Shown here: positions 36,664-46,459 of the stretch, piece after piece | How positions within the stretch are numbered: the first letter of the stretch is position 1 | Layout of the letters: each line of letters begins with the position of its first letter | Source of the DNA: a virus | Reading direction: 5' to 3' (one strand) | Virus record (IMG/VR): IMGVR_UViG_3300032246_000804 | Span: 1 to 61,555 of that record | DNA: 61,555 nt | Translations under genes and position numbers: made by a program | The notes under the pieces: model-generated | Seen by the model: the letters and a program-made list of their open reading frames with translations, nothing else | Databases searched by the model: none | What the model was told of the DNA's origin: nothing

Positions 36664-36739
36664 CCTGGCGTTCGTTCAACGGATAGGACATGATTCTTCT
36701 AAAGTCATTATAGAGGTTCGATTCCTCTACGCCGGACCA
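36664..36739 (+). tRNA. tRNA-Arg (anticodon TCT)
   Basis: CCA is encoded. Anticodon loop CTTCTAA sits on stem TGATT/AGTCA, and the T arm is GAGG-TTCGATT-CCTC. The acceptor stem pairs fully only if the T at 36666 is bulged out, which is unusual; it is either a real bulge or an indel. Confidence 0.85.
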
Positions 36740-37779: not shown

Positions 37780-37782
37780 TCC

Positions 37783-37790
37783 ACTAAATA
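37783..37790 (+). promoter_or_regulatory. Late promoter -10-like motif ACTAAATA
   Basis: It lies just after the peptidase stop and 43 bases before the small GTG-initiated frame at 37833. Confidence 0.45.
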
Positions 37791-37832
37791 AGTTGTATAT
37801 ATAATTTTATAGATTAAATTTTCGGAGTTATA

Positions 37833-37940
37833 GTGTCCCAGTTCCTCAAATCCTTATCGTCAACATGTGAGTATCGCACACCCTTTATTGGTAGCGATAA
37901 TCAACCATGGGCGCATGTAGGAGGTTGTGGAGTACGGTAA
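37833..37940 (+). CDS. Possible 35-residue microprotein
   Basis: GTG start with TCGGAG seven bases upstream. The product begins MSQFLKSLSS and ends WAHVGGCGVR; it contains two Cys, a Trp and several Gly. A strong terminator ends the unit 29 bases later and a late motif lies upstream, so a short transcript carrying only this frame is expected. It may be a real small protein, or the region may act as RNA. Confidence 0.45.
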   Translation: MSQFLKSLSSTCEYRTPFIGSDNQPWAHVGGCGVR

Positions 37941-37968
37941 CAGACTAGAAAACTAAACCAGATTCCAC

Positions 37969-38000
37969 AAACCTCACAACGAAAGTTCTGAGGTTTTTTT
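37969..38000 (+). terminator. Strong intrinsic terminator
   Basis: AAACCTCA (37969-37976) pairs with TGAGGTTT (37989-37996); inside it AAC/GTT closes a GAAA tetraloop. A T run ends at 38000. It isolates the tRNA operon from upstream genes. Confidence 0.9.
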
Positions 38001-38023
38001 GTTGTTCCTATACAACAAATGTA

Positions 38024-38052
38024 TTGACAGAGGCATCGACTTCTGTTATACT
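38024..38052 (+). promoter_or_regulatory. Sigma70-type promoter of the main tRNA block
   Basis: TTGACA (38024-38029) and TATACT (38047-38052) with 17-base spacing, right after the terminator. Confidence 0.85.
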
Positions 38053-38060
38053 CGGTTTTC

Positions 38061-38091
38061 GGTTGAGAAATCAACCAAATGTTCTTTAACA
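38061..38091 (+). promoter_or_regulatory. rrn-like boxB-boxA antitermination leader (copy 1)
   Basis: A perfect hairpin GGTTGA-GAAA-TCAACC (38061-38076, GNRA tetraloop) is followed after three bases by TGTTCTTTAACA (38080-38091). E. coli rrn boxA is TGCTCTTTAACA, so 11 of 12 bases agree. BoxA binds NusB-NusE and lets RNA polymerase read through structured stable-RNA operons. Confidence 0.75.
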
Positions 38092-38106
38092 AGTTAAGTG
38101 TAATTT

Positions 38107-38180
38107 ACGGGTGTTGTGTAATGGTAGCACATCAGACTTTGACTCTGAGAGCAGAGGTTCGATACCTTTCACCCGTTCCA
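38107..38180 (+). tRNA. tRNA-Gln (anticodon TTG)
   Basis: Acceptor ACGGGTG/CACCCGT, loop CTTTGAC on stem TCAGA/TCTGA, encoded CCA. Confidence 0.93.
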
Positions 38181-38258
38181 TATAAAAACACATTGTCCTA
38201 GGCTGTGACCTAGTCCATCAGAAGTCCTTAGAGACAGAAACAATGTGTTTCTATATGG
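38178..38258 (+). ncRNA. Inter-tRNA structured module 1
   Basis: CCATATAAAAACACATTGT (38178-38196) pairs with 38240-38258 with a single A-C mismatch in 19 positions. The stem starts in the CCA end of tRNA-Gln. The 43-nt interior contains CTAGG/CCTAG (38198-38202/38209-38213). It lacks T-loop and anticodon features, so it is not a tRNA. Confidence 0.7.
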
Positions 38259-38265
38259 TATTTTT

Positions 38266-38353
38266 GGAAGAGTGGGTGAGTGGTTTAAACCAGCAGTCTT
38301 GAAAACTGCCGACTGTAAAAGGTCCCTGAGTTCGAATCTCAGTTCTTCCACCA
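38266..38353 (+). tRNA. tRNA-Ser (anticodon TGA)
   Basis: Type II tRNA with a long variable arm. Loop CTTGAAA on GCAGT/ACTGC, T loop TTCGAAT, encoded CCA. Confidence 0.95.
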
Positions 38354-38359
38354 AACATT

Positions 38360-38446
38360 GGAGAGTGGGCTGGATGGTAAGGCACCGGATTGCTAATCCG
38401 ACGCTGCGAAAGTGGCGAGTGGGTTCGACTCCCACACTCTCCGCCA
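38360..38446 (+). tRNA. tRNA-Ser (anticodon GCT)
   Basis: Type II tRNA; loop TTGCTAA, variable arm CGCTGCGAAAGTGGCG, acceptor GGAGAGT/ACTCTCC, encoded CCA. Confidence 0.94.
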
Positions 38447-38451
38447 AATAT

Positions 38452-38527
38452 GTACGTGTGACCCGAACGGTGAGGGAGGTGATTGCAAACCACCAGTATG
38501 CAGGTTCGAGCCCTGTCACGTACTCCA
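38452..38527 (+). tRNA. tRNA-Cys (anticodon GCA)
   Basis: Acceptor GTACGTG/CACGTAC, discriminator T, loop TTGCAAA, encoded CCA. The last anticodon-stem pair is an A-C mismatch. Confidence 0.92.
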
Positions 38528-38581
38528 TTCTCTATTTGCGAATGGCGAATGTTGTTTTTTGCAACACTATGAAAATAGTTG

Positions 38582-38609
38582 TTGACAAATTGTATGGTTG
38601 TGATATACT
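38582..38609 (+). promoter_or_regulatory. Second sigma70-type promoter in the tRNA block
   Basis: TTGACA (38582-38587) and TATACT (38604-38609) with 16-base spacing, 56 bases before tRNA-Glu. Confidence 0.8.
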
Positions 38610-38619
38610 CCATGCATAC

Positions 38620-38646
38620 GTTGAGAAATCAACATGTTCTTTAACA
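38620..38646 (+). promoter_or_regulatory. rrn-like boxB-boxA antitermination leader (copy 2)
   Basis: GTTGA-GAAA-TCAAC (38620-38633), one base, then TGTTCTTTAACA (38635-38646). The 17 bases at 38645-38661 are identical to those at 38090-38106 in copy 1. Confidence 0.75.
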
Positions 38647-38664
38647 AGTTAAGTGTAATTTTGT

Positions 38665-38739
38665 GCTCCTGTCGTCTACTGGCTAGGACGCTGCCCTTTC
38701 AAGGCGGAAAAGACGGATCGAAACCGTTCAGGAGTACCA
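38665..38739 (+). tRNA. tRNA-Glu (anticodon TTC)
   Basis: Acceptor GCTCCTG/CAGGAGT, loop CTTTCAA on CTGCC/GGCGG, encoded CCA. Confidence 0.93.
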
Positions 38740-38848
38740 TATTAAAGCATACTACAGGTTGGGTTAGATTCGCGGTCTAACTATTTGGGTGTCATAGACT
38801 AGGTAATTACTAGTACCGGCACTAAGATACGCAGTGTGTTTTAATATG
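38738..38848 (+). ncRNA. Inter-tRNA structured module 2
   Basis: CATATTAAAGCATACT (38738-38753) pairs with AGTGTGTTTTAATATG (38833-38848) over 16 positions with two G-U pairs. The stem begins in the CCA end of tRNA-Glu. Inside are GTTAGA/TCTAAC around TTCGCGG and ACTAG/CTAGT around GTAATTA, giving a multibranched fold of ~111 nt. Confidence 0.7.
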
Positions 38849-38855
38849 GTAATAT

Positions 38856-38929
38856 GGGGGTATAACTTAGTGGTAAAGTAGTAGGCTTTTAACCTATTAA
38901 CCAGAGTTCAATTCTCTGTGCCCCTACCA
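38856..38929 (+). tRNA. tRNA-Lys (anticodon TTT)
   Basis: Acceptor GGGGGTA/TGCCCCT, loop CTTTTAA on TAGG/CCTA, T arm CAGAG-TTCAATT-CTCTG, encoded CCA. Confidence 0.94.
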
Positions 38930-38938
38930 AAGATTTTT

Positions 38939-39015
38939 GCCTTGGTGACGGAATTGGTATACGTACTGGTCTTAGAAACCAGGTTTTGCGAGTTCGAGTC
39001 TCGCCTAAGGCACCA
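38939..39015 (+). tRNA. tRNA-Leu (anticodon TAG) lacking the long variable arm
   Basis: Acceptor GCCTTGG/CTAAGGC, loop CTTAGAA on CTGGT/ACCAG, encoded CCA. The variable region is only GTTTT, although bacterial tRNA-Leu is normally type II. The D arm still looks Leu-like. Confidence 0.9.
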
Positions 39016-39216
39016 AATTCTCGTTACTACTTTCGTTAAAGTAGCGTTTGATTAGCGAGAGAGATCCGGTGGCAGAAAACCGTTAGCGAGTGTAACCCAC
39101 TCAGACTCTGATAGGCAGTTATCTTTCTGCACACAGGTACCAGATAAAAAAGATGGACAGAGTAACCGCTCAATTAAGGGCTGGCGTGGAAAACCAGTAG
39201 CTTATCCTAATTTGGT
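39012..39216 (+). ncRNA. Inter-tRNA structured module 3
   Basis: ACCAAATT (39012-39019), including the CCA of tRNA-Leu, pairs with AATTTGGT (39209-39216), which runs into the next tRNA. Inside, CTCGTTA/TAGCGAG (39020-39026/39053-39059) closes CTACTTT-CGTT-AAAGTAG (39027-39044). GAGTG/CACTC and GCTGG/CCAG-type stems follow. No ORF or complete tRNA was found in these ~190 bases. Confidence 0.55.
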
Positions 39217-39289
39217 CTTAAAGTGTTCATGGACGCACGACGGCTTGTCACGCCGTAAGAGTGGGGATCGTTACCCCCTAAGACCGCCA
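39214..39289 (+). tRNA. tRNA-Asp (anticodon GTC)
   Basis: Acceptor GGTCTTA/TAAGACC, discriminator G, loop TTGTCAC on ACGGC/GCCGT, encoded CCA. Confidence 0.94.
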
Positions 39290-39295
39290 ATTTAT

Positions 39296-39330
39296 GGAGA
39301 AGCGGATGCTACGGCATCTGTTATCCACCA
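39296..39330 (+). other. CCA-ended minihelix between tRNA-Asp and tRNA-Ile
   Basis: GGATGC-TACG-GCATCT closes a hairpin inside GGA...TCC, and the segment ends in ACCA like a tRNA. It has the size of an acceptor-T-arm minihelix but lacks tRNA arms; it may be a tRNA remnant or a small stable RNA. Confidence 0.45.
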
Positions 39331-39336
39331 AGTTTT

Positions 39337-39411
39337 GCTGATGTAGCTCAGAGGAAGAGCATTCGCTTGATAAGCGAAAGGCCGACATTTCGAAATTGTC
39401 CATCAGTACCA
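39337..39411 (+). tRNA. tRNA-Ile (anticodon GAT)
   Basis: Acceptor GCTGATG/CATCAGT, loop TTGATAA on TTCGC/GCGAA, encoded CCA. Confidence 0.94.
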
Positions 39412-39418
39412 AGTTTTA

Positions 39419-39502
39419 GGAGTGGATGCTCTAATGGTAGGGCAGCAGGCTGTAACCCTGTGGCCGCAAGGCAAGTAGGTTCGATCCCTACCCACTCCAC
39501 CA
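39419..39502 (+). tRNA. tRNA-Tyr (anticodon GTA)
   Basis: Type II tRNA; acceptor GGAGTGG/CCACTCC, loop CTGTAAC on CAGG/CCTG, encoded CCA. Confidence 0.95.
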
Positions 39503-39509
39503 AGTTTTA

Positions 39510-39583
39510 GCCCTATTAGTATAATGGTATTACACCTGTTTTGTAATCAGGTTACGGCAGTTCGATTCTGTCATGGGGCACCA
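39510..39583 (+). tRNA. tRNA-Thr (anticodon TGT)
   Basis: Acceptor GCCCTAT/ATGGGGC, loop TTTGTAA, encoded CCA. The innermost anticodon-stem pair is T-T. Confidence 0.92.
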
Positions 39584-39592
39584 AGTTTTTAT

Positions 39593-39659
39593 GCGGTAAG
39601 GTATTAACTGTCTGAGGGTCCACCTTAGAAGTGTTGTGAAAATCAATATTACCGCTCCA
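39593..39659 (+). other. tRNA-like sequence without D arm (Gly-like TCC)
   Basis: A perfect seven-pair acceptor GCGGTAA/TTACCGC with T discriminator and CCA. CTGAG/CTTAG holds a seven-base loop GGTCCAC (anticodon position TCC, but base 33 is G). The T-arm position pairs TGTTG/CAATA with loop TGAAAAT instead of TTCGANN. Only 12 bases replace the D arm. Probably a degenerate or special tRNA. Confidence 0.5.
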
Positions 39660-39666
39660 GTTTTAT

Positions 39667-39744
39667 CCGTGTGTAGCGCAGTCTGGTTAGCGCATCTGCT
39701 TTGGGAGCAGAGGGTCGGGAGTTCGAATCTCTCCACACGGACCA
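39667..39744 (+). tRNA. tRNA-Pro (anticodon TGG)
   Basis: Acceptor CCGTGTG/CACACGG, loop TTTGGGA on TCTGC/GCAGA, encoded CCA. Confidence 0.95.
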
Positions 39745-39759
39745 AGTTTTTTTGAATAT

Positions 39760-39835
39760 TCCGGTGAAGCAAACTAGGTGTGGGCAGAGGACTGTTAATC
39801 CTTGAAGCCAGGTTCGAATCCTGGGACCGGAGCCA
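39760..39835 (+). tRNA. tRNA-Asn (anticodon GTT)
   Basis: Acceptor TCCGGTG/GACCGGA with a G-G mismatch at the inner pair, loop CTGTTAA on AGGA/TCCT, encoded CCA. Confidence 0.9.
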
Positions 39836-39840
39836 ATTAT

Positions 39841-39915
39841 GGGCTGTTAGTGATAGTGGTAGCACAGGGGCTTTGCAAGCCTTAGGCGGGAGTTCGATTC
39901 TCCCACGGTCCACCA
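39841..39915 (+). tRNA. tRNA-Ala (anticodon TGC)
   Basis: Acceptor GGGCTGT/ACGGTCC including a G-U at position 3-70, the classic alanine identity element; loop TTTGCAA; encoded CCA. Confidence 0.95.
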
Positions 39916-39922
39916 TTTTTTA

Positions 39923-39997
39923 GGTGATATGACGTAGATGGATGCGTAGCGGTTTCATAAGCCGATGAGGAAGGCTCGGTACCTTCTATCACCACCA
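39923..39997 (+). tRNA. tRNA with anticodon CAT (second; Met or Ile2)
   Basis: Acceptor GGTGATA/TATCACC, loop TTCATAA on CGGT/GCCG, T arm GAAGG-CTCGGTA-CCTTC, encoded CCA. Confidence 0.88.
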
Positions 39998-39999
39998 GT

Positions 40000-40159
40000 T
40001 TTGTAGTAGGAGCAGTGCCTAGTGGGAAGGGCAATCAGAGGCCTTTAAAAACAAAGTAGTAAAAGTCTTTATATCAAAAAGATGAGTATCGAAAAGCCTT
40101 TATGATACACGGAGTAGCGGGAGGGGGTGATGCCCTGATGTGTCTACACCGGCTACAAA
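40000..40159 (+). ncRNA. Inter-tRNA structured module 4
   Basis: TTTGTAG (40000-40006) pairs with CTACAAA (40153-40159). Inside are TGCC/GGCA and GTATC/GATAC helices and a GC-rich 3' part. No tRNA or convincing ORF is present in this ~160-base stretch. Confidence 0.5.
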
Positions 40160-40166
40160 TTTATTT

Positions 40167-40244
40167 GCGCCTTTAGTTCAACTGGATAGAACACCGGGCT
40201 ACGAACCCGTGAGGTTGGGAGTTCAAATCTCTCAGGGCGCACCA
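40167..40244 (+). tRNA. tRNA-Arg (anticodon ACG)
   Basis: Acceptor GCGCCTT/AGGGCGC, loop CTACGAA on CGGG/CCCG, encoded CCA. A34 is normally edited to inosine by host TadA. Confidence 0.94.
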
Positions 40245-42934: not shown

Positions 42935-43243
42935 ATGGTAATTATTGTTTTAAAATTAATCACAGGAGAAGAAGTTCTCGGAGAAGTACAATCTCAAACT
43001 GAAACTGAATGGATTTTAGAAAACCCAGTAGGTATTGCAGTTGTTCGTGGCCAAAACGGTCAGCCTAATGTAGGATTTGCACCTTTCCCAATCCATGCAC
43101 CACAGAAACCAGGAAGTATTGTTGTTTTAGCAAAGAAACATGTTGTATACTCTTATGTTCCTGCCGAGGACTTTATCACTAATTATAATCAAATCTTTGG
43201 TTCAGGCATTGTTCTTCCACCAACAAAACAACTTATCGTTTAA
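42935..43243 (+). CDS. Small LSm-like protein upstream of DNA polymerase
   Basis: A 102-residue protein. IIVLKLITGEEVLGEVQSQT, WILENPVGIAVV, FAPFPIHAP and HVVYSYVPAEDFITNYNQIFG give a five-strand barrel pattern like Sm/LSm proteins with a C-terminal helix. The protein at 24087 has the same order. It overlaps the polymerase start by one base, so the two are coupled. An RNA-binding or polymerase-regulatory role is speculation. Confidence 0.55.
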   Translation: MVIIVLKLITGEEVLGEVQSQTETEWILENPVGIAVVRGQNGQPNVGFAPFPIHAPQKPGSIVVLAKKHVVYSYVPAEDFITNYNQIFGSGIVLPPTKQLIV

Positions 43244-44529
43244 TGCAATTTTATACTAACGTACAATGTTTCGGTAATAGTATTCTTTACCGAGGTGTGA
43301 TGGATGGCAAAAGAGTCAAACAACGAATTGACTACTCGCCATCACTTTACATCAGAAGCAAAACTGGTCAATACAAAACGCTTGATGGTAAAACACTAGA
43401 CCGCAAGCGTTTTGATGACATTAATGGTGCCCGTGAATACATCAAAGATTTTAAAGATGTGTCCGGCGCACCTAAAATCTATGGAAACAATCGTTATGAG
43501 TATGCCTTTATCGGTGAACAACACAAACAAATGGTTGAATGGGATCAAGATAAAGTCGTTATTGCAGTTGTTGATATTGAAGTTGGTTCAGAGAATGGTT
43601 TCCCTGATCCATATCTCGCTAACGAACCTATTACTGCCATCTGTTTGAAATATATCAATGGTTTGACAGTCGTATTTGGCTGTGGTGATTATGTTGTCCA
43701 AGGTAATGAAGTTTATATTAAATGCAAAGATGAATGGACACTCTGCAAAAGATTCATCAAACAATGGACTAATAATTGTCCTGATGTGTTGACTGGATGG
43801 AACACCAAGTTCTTTGATATTCCATATTTGATTAATCGTTTTCGTAAAATCGTAGGCGAAGAAGAAACTAAACTCTTATCGCCATGGAAATATATTACTG
43901 AACGTAAGACTGTTATTAACGGCCGACCAATGACTGCATATGATATTGTCGGCGTTGCATCACTTGATTATATCGAACTGTATCGTTGGTATGCTCCTGA
44001 TGGTAAATCACAAGAATCATATCGTTTAGATGCAATTGCAACAGCTGAGATTGGTGAGACCAAACTGTCGTATGATGAATTTGATAACTTACATGAATTG
44101 TATCGTTTGAATTATCAAAAGTTTATTGAGTACAACATCAAAGACGTTGAACTGATTATTAAACTGGAAGAAAAACTAAAATTGTTGGAGTTGGGATTGA
44201 CTCTTGCATATGATACTAAGTGTAACTATGAAGATATATTTGCACAGACACGCATGTGGGATGCACTCACATATAATCGGTTGATGCAGGATAATATTGT
44301 TGTTCCTCCAAAAGAAACACAAGAAAAAGATGGTATGTTTGCCGGTGCATATGTTAAAGACCCACAAGTTGGACTACACGAATGGCTTGCATCATTTGAC
44401 TTGAATAGTTTGTATCCTCATTTGATGATGCAATATTCCATAAGTCCTGAAAATCTTGTGGAAAGAAGTTATATTGAAGATAGAAGACAAAAACTGATTG
44501 GGGAGTTAAAGTTGAGAAATACTAAATAA
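43243..44529 (+). CDS. gp43: DNA polymerase gp43, N-terminal part (split gene 43A)
   Basis: A 428-residue family B polymerase fragment holding the N-terminal domain, the 3'-5' exonuclease and palm motif A. Exo I is VVDIEVGS near residue 108, Exo II is TGWNTKFFDIPYL near 186 and Exo III is YNIKDVELI near 290. Motif A is FDLNSLYPHLM near 386. After ISPENL the sequence ends in a charged tail (YIEDRRQKLIGEL...). The rest of the polymerase is at 45092. The ATG overlaps the previous stop. Confidence 0.93.
   Translation: MQFYTNVQCFGNSILYRGVMDGKRVKQRIDYSPSLYIRSKTGQYKTLDGKTLDRKRFDDINGAREYIKDFKDVSGAPKIYGNNRYEYAFIGEQHKQMVEWDQDKVVIAVVDIEVGSENGFPDPYLANEPITAICLKYINGLTVVFGCGDYVVQGNEVYIKCKDEWTLCKRFIKQWTNNCPDVLTGWNTKFFDIPYLINRFRKIVGEEETKLLSPWKYITERKTVINGRPMTAYDIVGVASLDYIELYRWYAPDGKSQESYRLDAIATAEIGETKLSYDEFDNLHELYRLNYQKFIEYNIKDVELIIKLEEKLKLLELGLTLAYDTKCNYEDIFAQTRMWDALTYNRLMQDNIVVPPKETQEKDGMFAGAYVKDPQVGLHEWLASFDLNSLYPHLMMQYSISPENLVERSYIEDRRQKLIGELKLRNTK
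44521..44528 (+). promoter_or_regulatory. Late-like motif ACTAAATA before the HNH gene
   Basis: It overlaps the 43A stop and lies 31 bases before the endonuclease gene. It may give the endonuclease its own late expression. Confidence 0.4.
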
Positions 44530-44558
44530 GTGGATGTGGTTACTTATTAGGAAAATCA

Positions 44559-45092
44559 ATGAAATACAATATTACCAAAGATAAACTCTATGAATTGTTT
44601 ATTACCGAGAATATGAGAAGAAGCGAGGTTGCCGAATATTTTGGTTGTTCGGATGCCAACATTAAAAAATACCTACAAAAATTTGACATTAAGAAGCCTT
44701 TTGAGTTAGAATGTAAAAATAAAGAACGAAGGGCCTTGTTGAAGTGTTTACATTGTAATAATGAATATGAAACACAGAAGTTTCGGACTGAAAGTGTGAA
44801 ATATGATTCAAAATATTGTAGTTATTCTTGTGCTCAAAAAAGTAGGTATTTGGGTGAAGACCACAAACGTAGAATCAGAAATGAAATTGCCGCAAGGCGT
44901 AGAGCAAGAATACGGAATCAAACTCCAAAATTGAGTAAAGAAGAAAAGAGAAAGTTGCAAGAATATTATTTGATTTGTCCTAAAGGACATGAAGTAGACC
45001 ACATTCAAGCAATTGCAAAAGGTGGTTTACATCATCCAGACAACTTACAGATATTGACTGTGAATGAGAATAGAAAGAAGTGGTGTAAATAA
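44559..45092 (+). CDS. HNH homing endonuclease inserted in gene 43
   Basis: A 177-residue free-standing endonuclease. The N-terminal ~50 residues form a helix-turn-helix (RRSEVAEYFGCSDANIKKYL); then a zinc ribbon (CLHC...CSYSC) and a C-terminal HNH core (HEVDHIQAIAKGG, HHPDNLQIL, NENRKK). Such genes spread by cutting an uninterrupted copy. It lies exactly between the two polymerase parts, with its stop overlapping the 43B start (TAATG). Confidence 0.92.
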   Translation: MKYNITKDKLYELFITENMRRSEVAEYFGCSDANIKKYLQKFDIKKPFELECKNKERRALLKCLHCNNEYETQKFRTESVKYDSKYCSYSCAQKSRYLGEDHKRRIRNEIAARRRARIRNQTPKLSKEEKRKLQEYYLICPKGHEVDHIQAIAKGGLHHPDNLQILTVNENRKKWCK

Positions 45093-46459
45093 TGTTTCGT
45101 AATGTAAAAGAATTAACAACCGAAGAACTTGAAAAAGAACTTCAGGCCATAGAATTATTTGAAAAAGAAATTGGTAAAGTCAATGTTGAAAATATGTTGA
45201 ATAAATCAATTGACACATCCTTTCTTGGTCCATTGGAATGCACACTTACTCCCAACGGACAGCTGTTTAGGACCGACCGACAAGGTTTCTTACCAAAGAT
45301 GATGGATGAAATGTATCAAGACCGTAAGAAATTCAAAAAGATGATGTTGAATGCGAAACAGGACTATGAAAATGAGAAAGATGATTCTAAAAAGTATGAG
45401 ATTGAAAAACGAATTGCTAGACTCAATAATCTTCAGCTTGCAAAAAAGGTTTCTCTTAATTCTGCTTATGGTGCTTTAGGTTCTCAATATTTCAGATTCT
45501 ATGACTTGCGTATGGCCTTGGGTGTTACCACTGCCGGTCAATTGTCAATCAAATGGATTGAAAATAAGATTAACGGTTACATGAACAAGTTACTATCATC
45601 AGAAGAAAAAGATTATGTGATTGCATCCGATACAGATTCAATTTATTTGAAACTTGGTCCTTTGGTTAACAAAGTTTATGGTGATGCTGTAAAATCTATG
45701 CCAAAGACAAAGGTGATTGATTTCATGGACCGTGTTTGTAAGGACAAGATTGAGCCATACATCAACGAATCATACAATGAATTGGCTGAGTATGTACATG
45801 CATATGCACAGAAGATGCAAATGAAACGTGAAGCATTGGCTGACAAAGGCATCTGGACTGCCAAGAAGCGTTACATTATGAACGTGTATGACAATGAAGG
45901 TGTTCGTTACAATGAACCTGACTTGAAAGTTATGGGTCTTGAAATGATTAAGTCATCTACTCCTGCGGCAGTTCGTAGCAAGATGAAAGAATCTATTCAG
46001 ATTATGATTTCTGGAACAGAATTGGATATGCATAAGTTTATTGCCGATTTCAGAAAATACTTTACTGGTTTACCGCCTGAAGATATTTCTTTTCCTCGTG
46101 GAATTAATGGCCTAAGTAAGTATTCCGATAGCAATAGTTTATACAAATCTGGAACACCAATTCATGTCAAAGGTGCAATTCTTTACAACCATTACCTCAA
46201 AGAAATGAAGTTGACAAAGAAATATCCTTTGATTCAAGAAGGTGAGAAGATTAAGTTTTCATATTTGATTATGCCGAACCCCTTCAAAGATACCGTTATC
46301 TCTTATCCAACACGGTTGCCAAAAGAATTTGACATTTCAAAATATATCGACTATAATACACAATTCGAAAAGACTTTTCTGGAACCCATTAAAGTTATTT
46401 TAGATTGCATGGGCTGGTCGACCGAGAAACAGACTACACTAGATGACTTTTTTAATTGA
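45092..46459 (+). CDS. gp43: DNA polymerase gp43, C-terminal part (split gene 43B)
   Basis: A 455-residue fragment completing the polymerase. The first ~70 residues are a family-typical linker leading to LFRTDRQGFLPKMM. Motif B is KKVSLNSAYGALGS near residue 127 and motif C is IASDTDSIYL near 175. The C-terminus WSTEKQTTLDDFF ends in a clamp-binding-like TLDDFF peptide. Together with 43A all catalytic motifs are present, so a two-chain enzyme can be active. Confidence 0.93.
   Translation: MFRNVKELTTEELEKELQAIELFEKEIGKVNVENMLNKSIDTSFLGPLECTLTPNGQLFRTDRQGFLPKMMDEMYQDRKKFKKMMLNAKQDYENEKDDSKKYEIEKRIARLNNLQLAKKVSLNSAYGALGSQYFRFYDLRMALGVTTAGQLSIKWIENKINGYMNKLLSSEEKDYVIASDTDSIYLKLGPLVNKVYGDAVKSMPKTKVIDFMDRVCKDKIEPYINESYNELAEYVHAYAQKMQMKREALADKGIWTAKKRYIMNVYDNEGVRYNEPDLKVMGLEMIKSSTPAAVRSKMKESIQIMISGTELDMHKFIADFRKYFTGLPPEDISFPRGINGLSKYSDSNSLYKSGTPIHVKGAILYNHYLKEMKLTKKYPLIQEGEKIKFSYLIMPNPFKDTVISYPTRLPKEFDISKYIDYNTQFEKTFLEPIKVILDCMGWSTEKQTTLDDFFN

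Follow-up and report, generated by a model that had tools for sequence, protein, structure and literature searches.

A small structured RNA with a self-complementary loop in the tRNA cluster of an uncultured phage

Recent work has shown that GOLLD and ROOL, large phage RNAs encoded beside tRNA islands, assemble into RNA-only cages, but these RNAs are difficult to work with and have no established role. We analysed the 61,555-base record IMGVR_UViG_3300032246_000804 of an uncultured freshwater-type phage (the window), which holds 28 tRNA genes between positions 36665 and 41857, and concentrated on module 2, an element at 38735-38851 in the spacer between tRNA-Glu (TTC, 38665-38739) and tRNA-Lys (TTT, 38856-38929). 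Both tRNAs, module 2 with all its parts, and the sister and upstream elements described below are on the plus strand. We consider it fairly probable that module 2 is a structured non-coding RNA of about 115 nt which is excised from the tRNA transcript and acts as a homodimer; its fold and family come from comparison, its dimerisation is suggested by covariation, and its excision and role are what we infer. Like module 2, GOLLD and ROOL are phage- or prophage-borne, lie near tRNAs, are structured and have no known protein partner, and they form homo-oligomers through symmetric kissing loops whose palindromes covary (PMC12286853). They are 500-800 nt long, whereas module 2 is far shorter, has another fold, sits inside a tRNA spacer starting from the CCA and matches nothing in Rfam. 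A loop similar to the P2 loop of module 2 is L9.3 of OLE RNA, an unrelated large RNA of bacterial chromosomes, in which an internal tetranucleotide switches between the palindromes GGCC, GAUC and AGCU (PMC12286853). The Rfam covariance models of GOLLD, ROOL and OLE gave no match in the window, and the switching palindromic loop common to module 2 and GOLLD/OLE is a working similarity, not homology: module 2 shares a single trait with OLE and GOLLD and belongs to neither family.

RNA C and RNA D of phage T4 (the species 1 and 2 stable RNAs), which we liken to module 2 by their placement in a phage tRNA region, have to our knowledge no palindromic loop class. They are small stable late RNAs of unknown function and show that such RNAs can accumulate (PMC9697503). 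The manA and wcaG motifs are structured RNAs of T4-like cyanophages known from aquatic metagenomes (PMC2864571), but they are located in 5' untranslated regions (UTRs) and had no match in the window. The closing helix of module 2 (P1) recalls the rRNA leader-trailer helices, which enclose an RNA with more than 17 bp, belong to transcripts with boxB-boxA leaders, contain the RNase III site of E. coli rRNA and are a precedent for the cutting of a long enclosing helix by this enzyme (PMC10250234); in module 2, by contrast, a small phage RNA lies inside the helix, the CCA of the adjacent tRNA forms part of that helix, and cleavage is a prediction. Self-complementary or complementary loops that join RNA copies, as proposed here for P2, are found in the dimerisation initiation site (DIS) of HIV-1, the GACG loops of Moloney murine leukaemia virus (MoMuLV) and the pRNA of phage phi29 (PMC7357161), although their folds, sizes and biology are different. 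A pRNA-like reading of module 2 was considered, then rejected or placed low. Small structured RNAs of phage tRNA regions are, in short, already known, and module 2 is new as an interchangeable cassette anchored in the CCA.

The ends of module 2 are formed by inverted repeat arms (38735-38753 and 38833-38851) of 19 nt, with 89% strict complementarity and every position paired if G-U pairs are counted. The 5' arm opens with TACCA, the last five nucleotides of tRNA-Glu. An extra C-G pair (38755/38831), which is U-A in the relatives L226 and L262-L268 and C-G in 37 sequences, extends the inner end of the stem, so that P1 spans 38735-38755 and 38831-38851; tRNA-Lys begins 4 nt past the helix. A prior reading made from the letters of the window (the sequence-only reading) had correctly placed the element after tRNA-Glu with a stem starting within the CCA, and the closing stem that it had described is real but longer than the 16 bp given. 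The two interior hairpins that it had noticed are also present. P2 (38763-38781) pairs GTTAGA with TCTAAC (38763-38768/38776-38781) around a 7-nt loop. The P3 arm (38782-38828; pairs 38783-38793/38818-38828) has an invariant base, a variable inner helix and a distal hairpin (38798-38814), and RNAalifold paired its alignment columns 51-57 with columns 116-122, corresponding to ATTTGGG/CTAAGAT, an invariant helix that contains a single internal G-A position. P1, P2 and P3 meet in a three-way junction in which the J1/2 strand, AGGTTGG of CAGGTTGGG (38756-38762), occupies invariant columns in the 37 aligned sequences, J2/3 is nearly absent and J3/1 is an invariant AC (38829-38830). Comparison shows that module 2 folds as a three-way junction and that the junction is invariant.

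The minimum free energy of 38735-38853 was -44.3 kcal/mol, compared to -24.8 ± 3.1 for dinucleotide shuffles (z -6.25), and none of 200 shuffles folded as stably; for 38738-38852, close to the interval of the sequence-only reading, the z value was -5.28. The cluster does contain odd, degenerate tRNA-like spacers, which could make one think of a decayed tRNA or of a fold arisen by chance. Neither ARAGORN nor Rfam matched a tRNA in 38740-38855, however, and this explanation, to which we give a negligible probability, is already contradicted by the shuffling result and by covariation across some 65 contigs.

This covariation was measured on an alignment of 37 distinct, mutually related sequences, from which a covariance model was built. 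Over P1 (21 pairs), P2 (6 pairs) and the inner part of P3 (4 pairs), 94.8% of the base-pair cells were paired, in comparison with 73.1% in shuffled controls and 34-42% when the partners were slid, and double compensatory changes affected 24 of the 31 pairs. P2 was the best kept helix (99.1% of cells paired, double changes in 5 of 6 pairs), followed by P1 (96.1%, 15 of 21) and inner P3 (81.1%, 4 of 4). The suspicion of selection on structure expressed in the sequence-only reading is borne out by these figures; its argument that the stem keeps pairing through G-U changes applies to the copy in the window, the relatives showing mostly full double substitutions. The interior, with about 30 invariant positions, is among the most conserved parts.

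Relatives were reached by two routes. Through a 163-aa RNase H-like protein (Pfam PF04308) encoded within the cluster, 80 related loci were obtained. According to blastn, L005, L012 and L048 have module 2 in the same slot as the window, and L031 and L056 have it elsewhere. A pattern of the interior core yielded 58 stretches and a looser one ten further loci. The covariance model scored 55 of the 58 stretches at 52.6-124 bits, the three at about 53 bits being truncated at contig ends, and separated whole members (at least 72 bits) cleanly from stem-only elements (at most 44 bits). The three other pattern matches (L085, L094 and L111) look like chance and had no covariance model match. The sole match among genome contigs, in Staphylococcus, is due to chance and had no covariance model match either. 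Module 2 is hence far from absent in relatives: besides the window, it is carried by some 65 viral contigs and by one isolate, Limnohabitans phage DC31, and the comparison of sequences shows that a module 2 RNA family exists. No Rfam family matched it: cmscan of the window at gathering thresholds, and of 37780-40170 with E values up to 5, returned tRNA-type and spurious matches only; only tRNAs were among the matches listed for 13 relatives; and no riboswitch or ribozyme model matched. A self-cleaving ribozyme reading was considered, then rejected or placed low. A blastn search with module 2 at E values up to 1 against INPHARED (50,697 phage records, T4 included) gave no match.

A further finding concerns the P2 loop. 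Bases 3-6 of its 7 nt (38771-38774, CGCG in the window), a candidate symmetric kissing-loop site, formed a perfect palindrome in all 37 sequences, and this palindrome was one of six (CGCG, ACGT, TGCA, CCGG, GTAC or CATG). No other set of four columns in the alignment was always palindromic while switching, and the new distinct P2 hairpins from the looser search were palindromic as well. The bases of the core stand too near each other to pair inside a single loop, and the palindrome recurs nowhere in the same RNA in 36 of the 37 sequences (one has extra copies), so that pairing between two copies remains. The same argument, a tetranucleotide switching between palindromes, has been used for the symmetric loops of OLE and GOLLD (Kretsch et al. 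2025, PMC12286853). Moreover, a purine always stood directly 3' of the palindrome in the loops observed; this is likewise the case in HIV-1 DIS, whose kissing loop needs flanking purines (PMC7357161). From these patterns we judge it likely that two copies of the RNA dimerise through the P2 loop.

Module 2 was found in two genomic settings. Thirty of 48 distinct copies have arms of the CCATAT type and belong to tRNA clusters, where they follow tRNAs for Glu, Lys, Pro, Leu, Thr and others; the remaining 18 have quite different arms (TTATAGTTCAGTATATTTC), are downstream of tRNA-Arg and mostly stand directly before the Shine-Dalgarno sequence of a gene with a DUF7275 domain. The interior is therefore kept while the arms change, from CCATAT to the leader type TTATAGTTCAG. 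Phage DC31 (PQ492658) has a leader-type copy, unannotated there, at L269 2368-2492, which scored 110 bits; too diverged for blastn, it was reached via the neighbouring protein and the covariance model. The position of this copy type in DC31-type phages would suit a cis-regulatory, riboswitch-like element of the downstream gene that was later copied into tRNA clusters. We hold this to be very improbable: a 5' UTR location is not true of most members, which lie between tRNAs, no alternative terminator or partner sequestering the Shine-Dalgarno was seen, and no Rfam riboswitch matched. In addition, since leader-type copies precede varied sequence (tRNA-Met in L130, other sequence in L122, L131 and L132), control of one gene does not explain them. 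Beyond what the sequence-only reading had noticed, the sequences compared here indicate that the interior is a conserved family with two genomic settings and that its P2 loop is always self-complementary.

The closing helix is not peculiar to module 2. Module 1 (38178-38258), a sister cassette located 3' of tRNA-Gln, has the same kind of helix (19 nt, 95% complementary) around an unrelated interior, and this repeated design, already pointed out in the sequence-only reading, generalises to hundreds of elements. With a strict arm pattern, at least 120 stretches for each of two length ranges were retrieved from IMG/VR, on contigs of up to 383 kb. In 377 loci, 564 distinct elements were counted near tRNAs. 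In 337 of the 342 elements directly 3' of a tRNA, the CAT of the arm had an identical position, sharing two bases with the end of the CCA, and the stems of these 342 elements measured 17-24 bp, with a mode of 19-20. The interiors fell into 266 similarity clusters, 22 of them with at least 5 members, and at least 20 interiors were unrelated.

So many unrelated interiors on one stem type, with stems of that length starting exactly in the CCA, are what would be expected of a processing insulator, the main rival of our reading, in which the long closing helix alone is of importance, providing a cleavage site between tRNAs, and the interior serves as filler to hold the helix open. The locus L069 fits it well, as it has both arms at the same tRNA-Glu slot but around a loop of just 17 nt instead of the module 2 interior. 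In module 2, nevertheless, conservation is higher in the interior than in the arms, the interior persists when the arms change, and filler would not maintain loop palindromes; we regard the insulator as unlikely to be the whole account of this element. A different use of the same arms would be as terminal inverted repeats of a selfish DNA cassette moving unrelated small elements between tRNA ends. Elements sharing arms are found at the ends of 17 kinds of tRNA, the same cargo occurs at different slots, and L139 and L136 hold arrays of cassettes. Against such mobility, the elements have no coding capacity, shared the strand of the tRNA in every case examined and occupy, in the case of module 2 in DC31-type phages, one fixed slot; no target-site duplication was noticed, without a systematic search for them; and the double compensatory changes of P1, together with a retained conserved A-C mismatch, point to selection at the RNA level. 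We think a selfish cassette improbable, more so than the insulator.

Several side observations concern this wider class. The arrays (L139 7900-9510, L136 6797-8308 and L070 642-1146) are interleaved with very degenerate tRNA-like sequences. In the isolate Curvibacter phage P26059A (L270 1673-2330), several long-stem elements follow each other after tRNA-Arg; their arm sequences are other ones, again ending in ATGG, and ARAGORN calls one of them tRNA-Pyl. In one cargo family of the tRNA-Glu/tRNA-Lys slot (L002, L006, L013, L033 and L064), 17 of 17 sequences carry the same GACG tetraloop on a stem that covaries; a GACG loop self-pairs in MoMuLV (PMC7357161).

A clear palindrome switch was found in 4 of the 22 interior families, module 2 included (permutation counts of 0-4 in 1000), and three more were suggestive; in a shuffled control, 1 of 3983 windows passed. 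The palindromes in the other interiors were CTGCAG/TGGCCA/TTGCAA (15 of 16 sequences), TTCGAA/TGGCCA/TGTACA (7 of 7) and GATC/CATG/AATT/AGCT (6 of 6). A palindrome property of all cassettes was unsupported: 6-mer palindromes in loops of 7-9 nt numbered 15 against 4.0 in shuffles, and several were remnants of tRNA T-loops (TTCGAAT).

The excised homodimer could arise as follows. Module 2 would be transcribed with the tRNAs from the promoter-like site at 38582-38609, followed by boxB- and boxA-like elements. P1 would then hide the CCA of tRNA-Glu and, because it covers that end, 3' trimming would have to wait for a cut in the helix. A length of about two turns suits RNase III or another double-strand-specific RNase, and an enzyme of this type may cut P1. 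Cleavage by RNase P at the 5' end of tRNA-Lys would free both tRNAs and the module 2 RNA, which would pair with a second copy, CGCG to CGCG through the P2 loops, and work as a homodimer. By analogy with GOLLD and ROOL, its likeliest role would be that of an RNA assembly acting in trans during infection. Some points weigh against this scheme. It is solely the length of the stem that suggests RNase III cleavage of P1. Given how few of the families switch palindromes, dimerisation is not a trait that the cassettes share in general. The P3 loop, judged by eye, is palindromic in some members only, and this inconsistency means that just one self-pairing contact is supported. Finally, the sequences are related, and the independent palindrome switches number at least 5, not 37.

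The region directly upstream of tRNA-Glu (38582-38661) contains the promoter-like TTGACA-16-TATACT (38582-38609, 11 of 12 matches), a boxB-like hairpin (38620-38633) and the boxA-like TGTTCTTTAACA (38635-38646). An rRNA-type boxA leader (TGTTCTTTAA[AC]A) precedes tRNA operons more widely: in the window, copies lie at 38061-38106 and 38620-38661, with a boxB-like hairpin too, and 125 copies were counted in the 3.46 Mb of the 377 loci, where about 0.8 would be expected by chance. Of these, 104 preceded a same-strand tRNA by at most 60 nt, mostly by 16-19 nt. The pattern suggests that phage tRNA operons may borrow the antitermination machinery of the host, and a literature search found no report of boxA leaders before phage tRNA operons. 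Elsewhere in the window, the spacer at 39016-39213 (tRNA-Leu/tRNA-Asp) looks structured and shows 83-94% identity in 27 loci; the non-coding segment 37780-38010 is kept in 16 loci and ends 3' in a terminator-like hairpin with a T run; and 39290-39336 is a very short stable hairpin (z -4.3), conserved in L002-L004, which resembles a minimal tRNA acceptor in that it ends with CCA. At 43243-46459, a DNA polymerase is split over two reading frames with a 177-aa open reading frame of no known family in between.

Taken more broadly, module 2 might belong to a large class of small phage RNAs not described so far, that is, tRNA-operon cassettes anchored in the CCA, excised via a common two-turn helix, several of them self-assembling by palindromic loops and acting in trans as RNA-only complexes during infection; we propose this tentatively and with more doubt than the reading of module 2 itself. 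Such a cassette class bears on why phage tRNA clusters hold structured spacers and on how tRNAs are released when a helix covers their CCA. Compared with GOLLD and ROOL, an RNA of 115 nt that has a similar setting and a self-complementary loop with covariation would offer a much simpler system for tests, and the presence of module 2 in the isolate DC31 makes its expression, its dimerisation and the effects of its loss directly testable.
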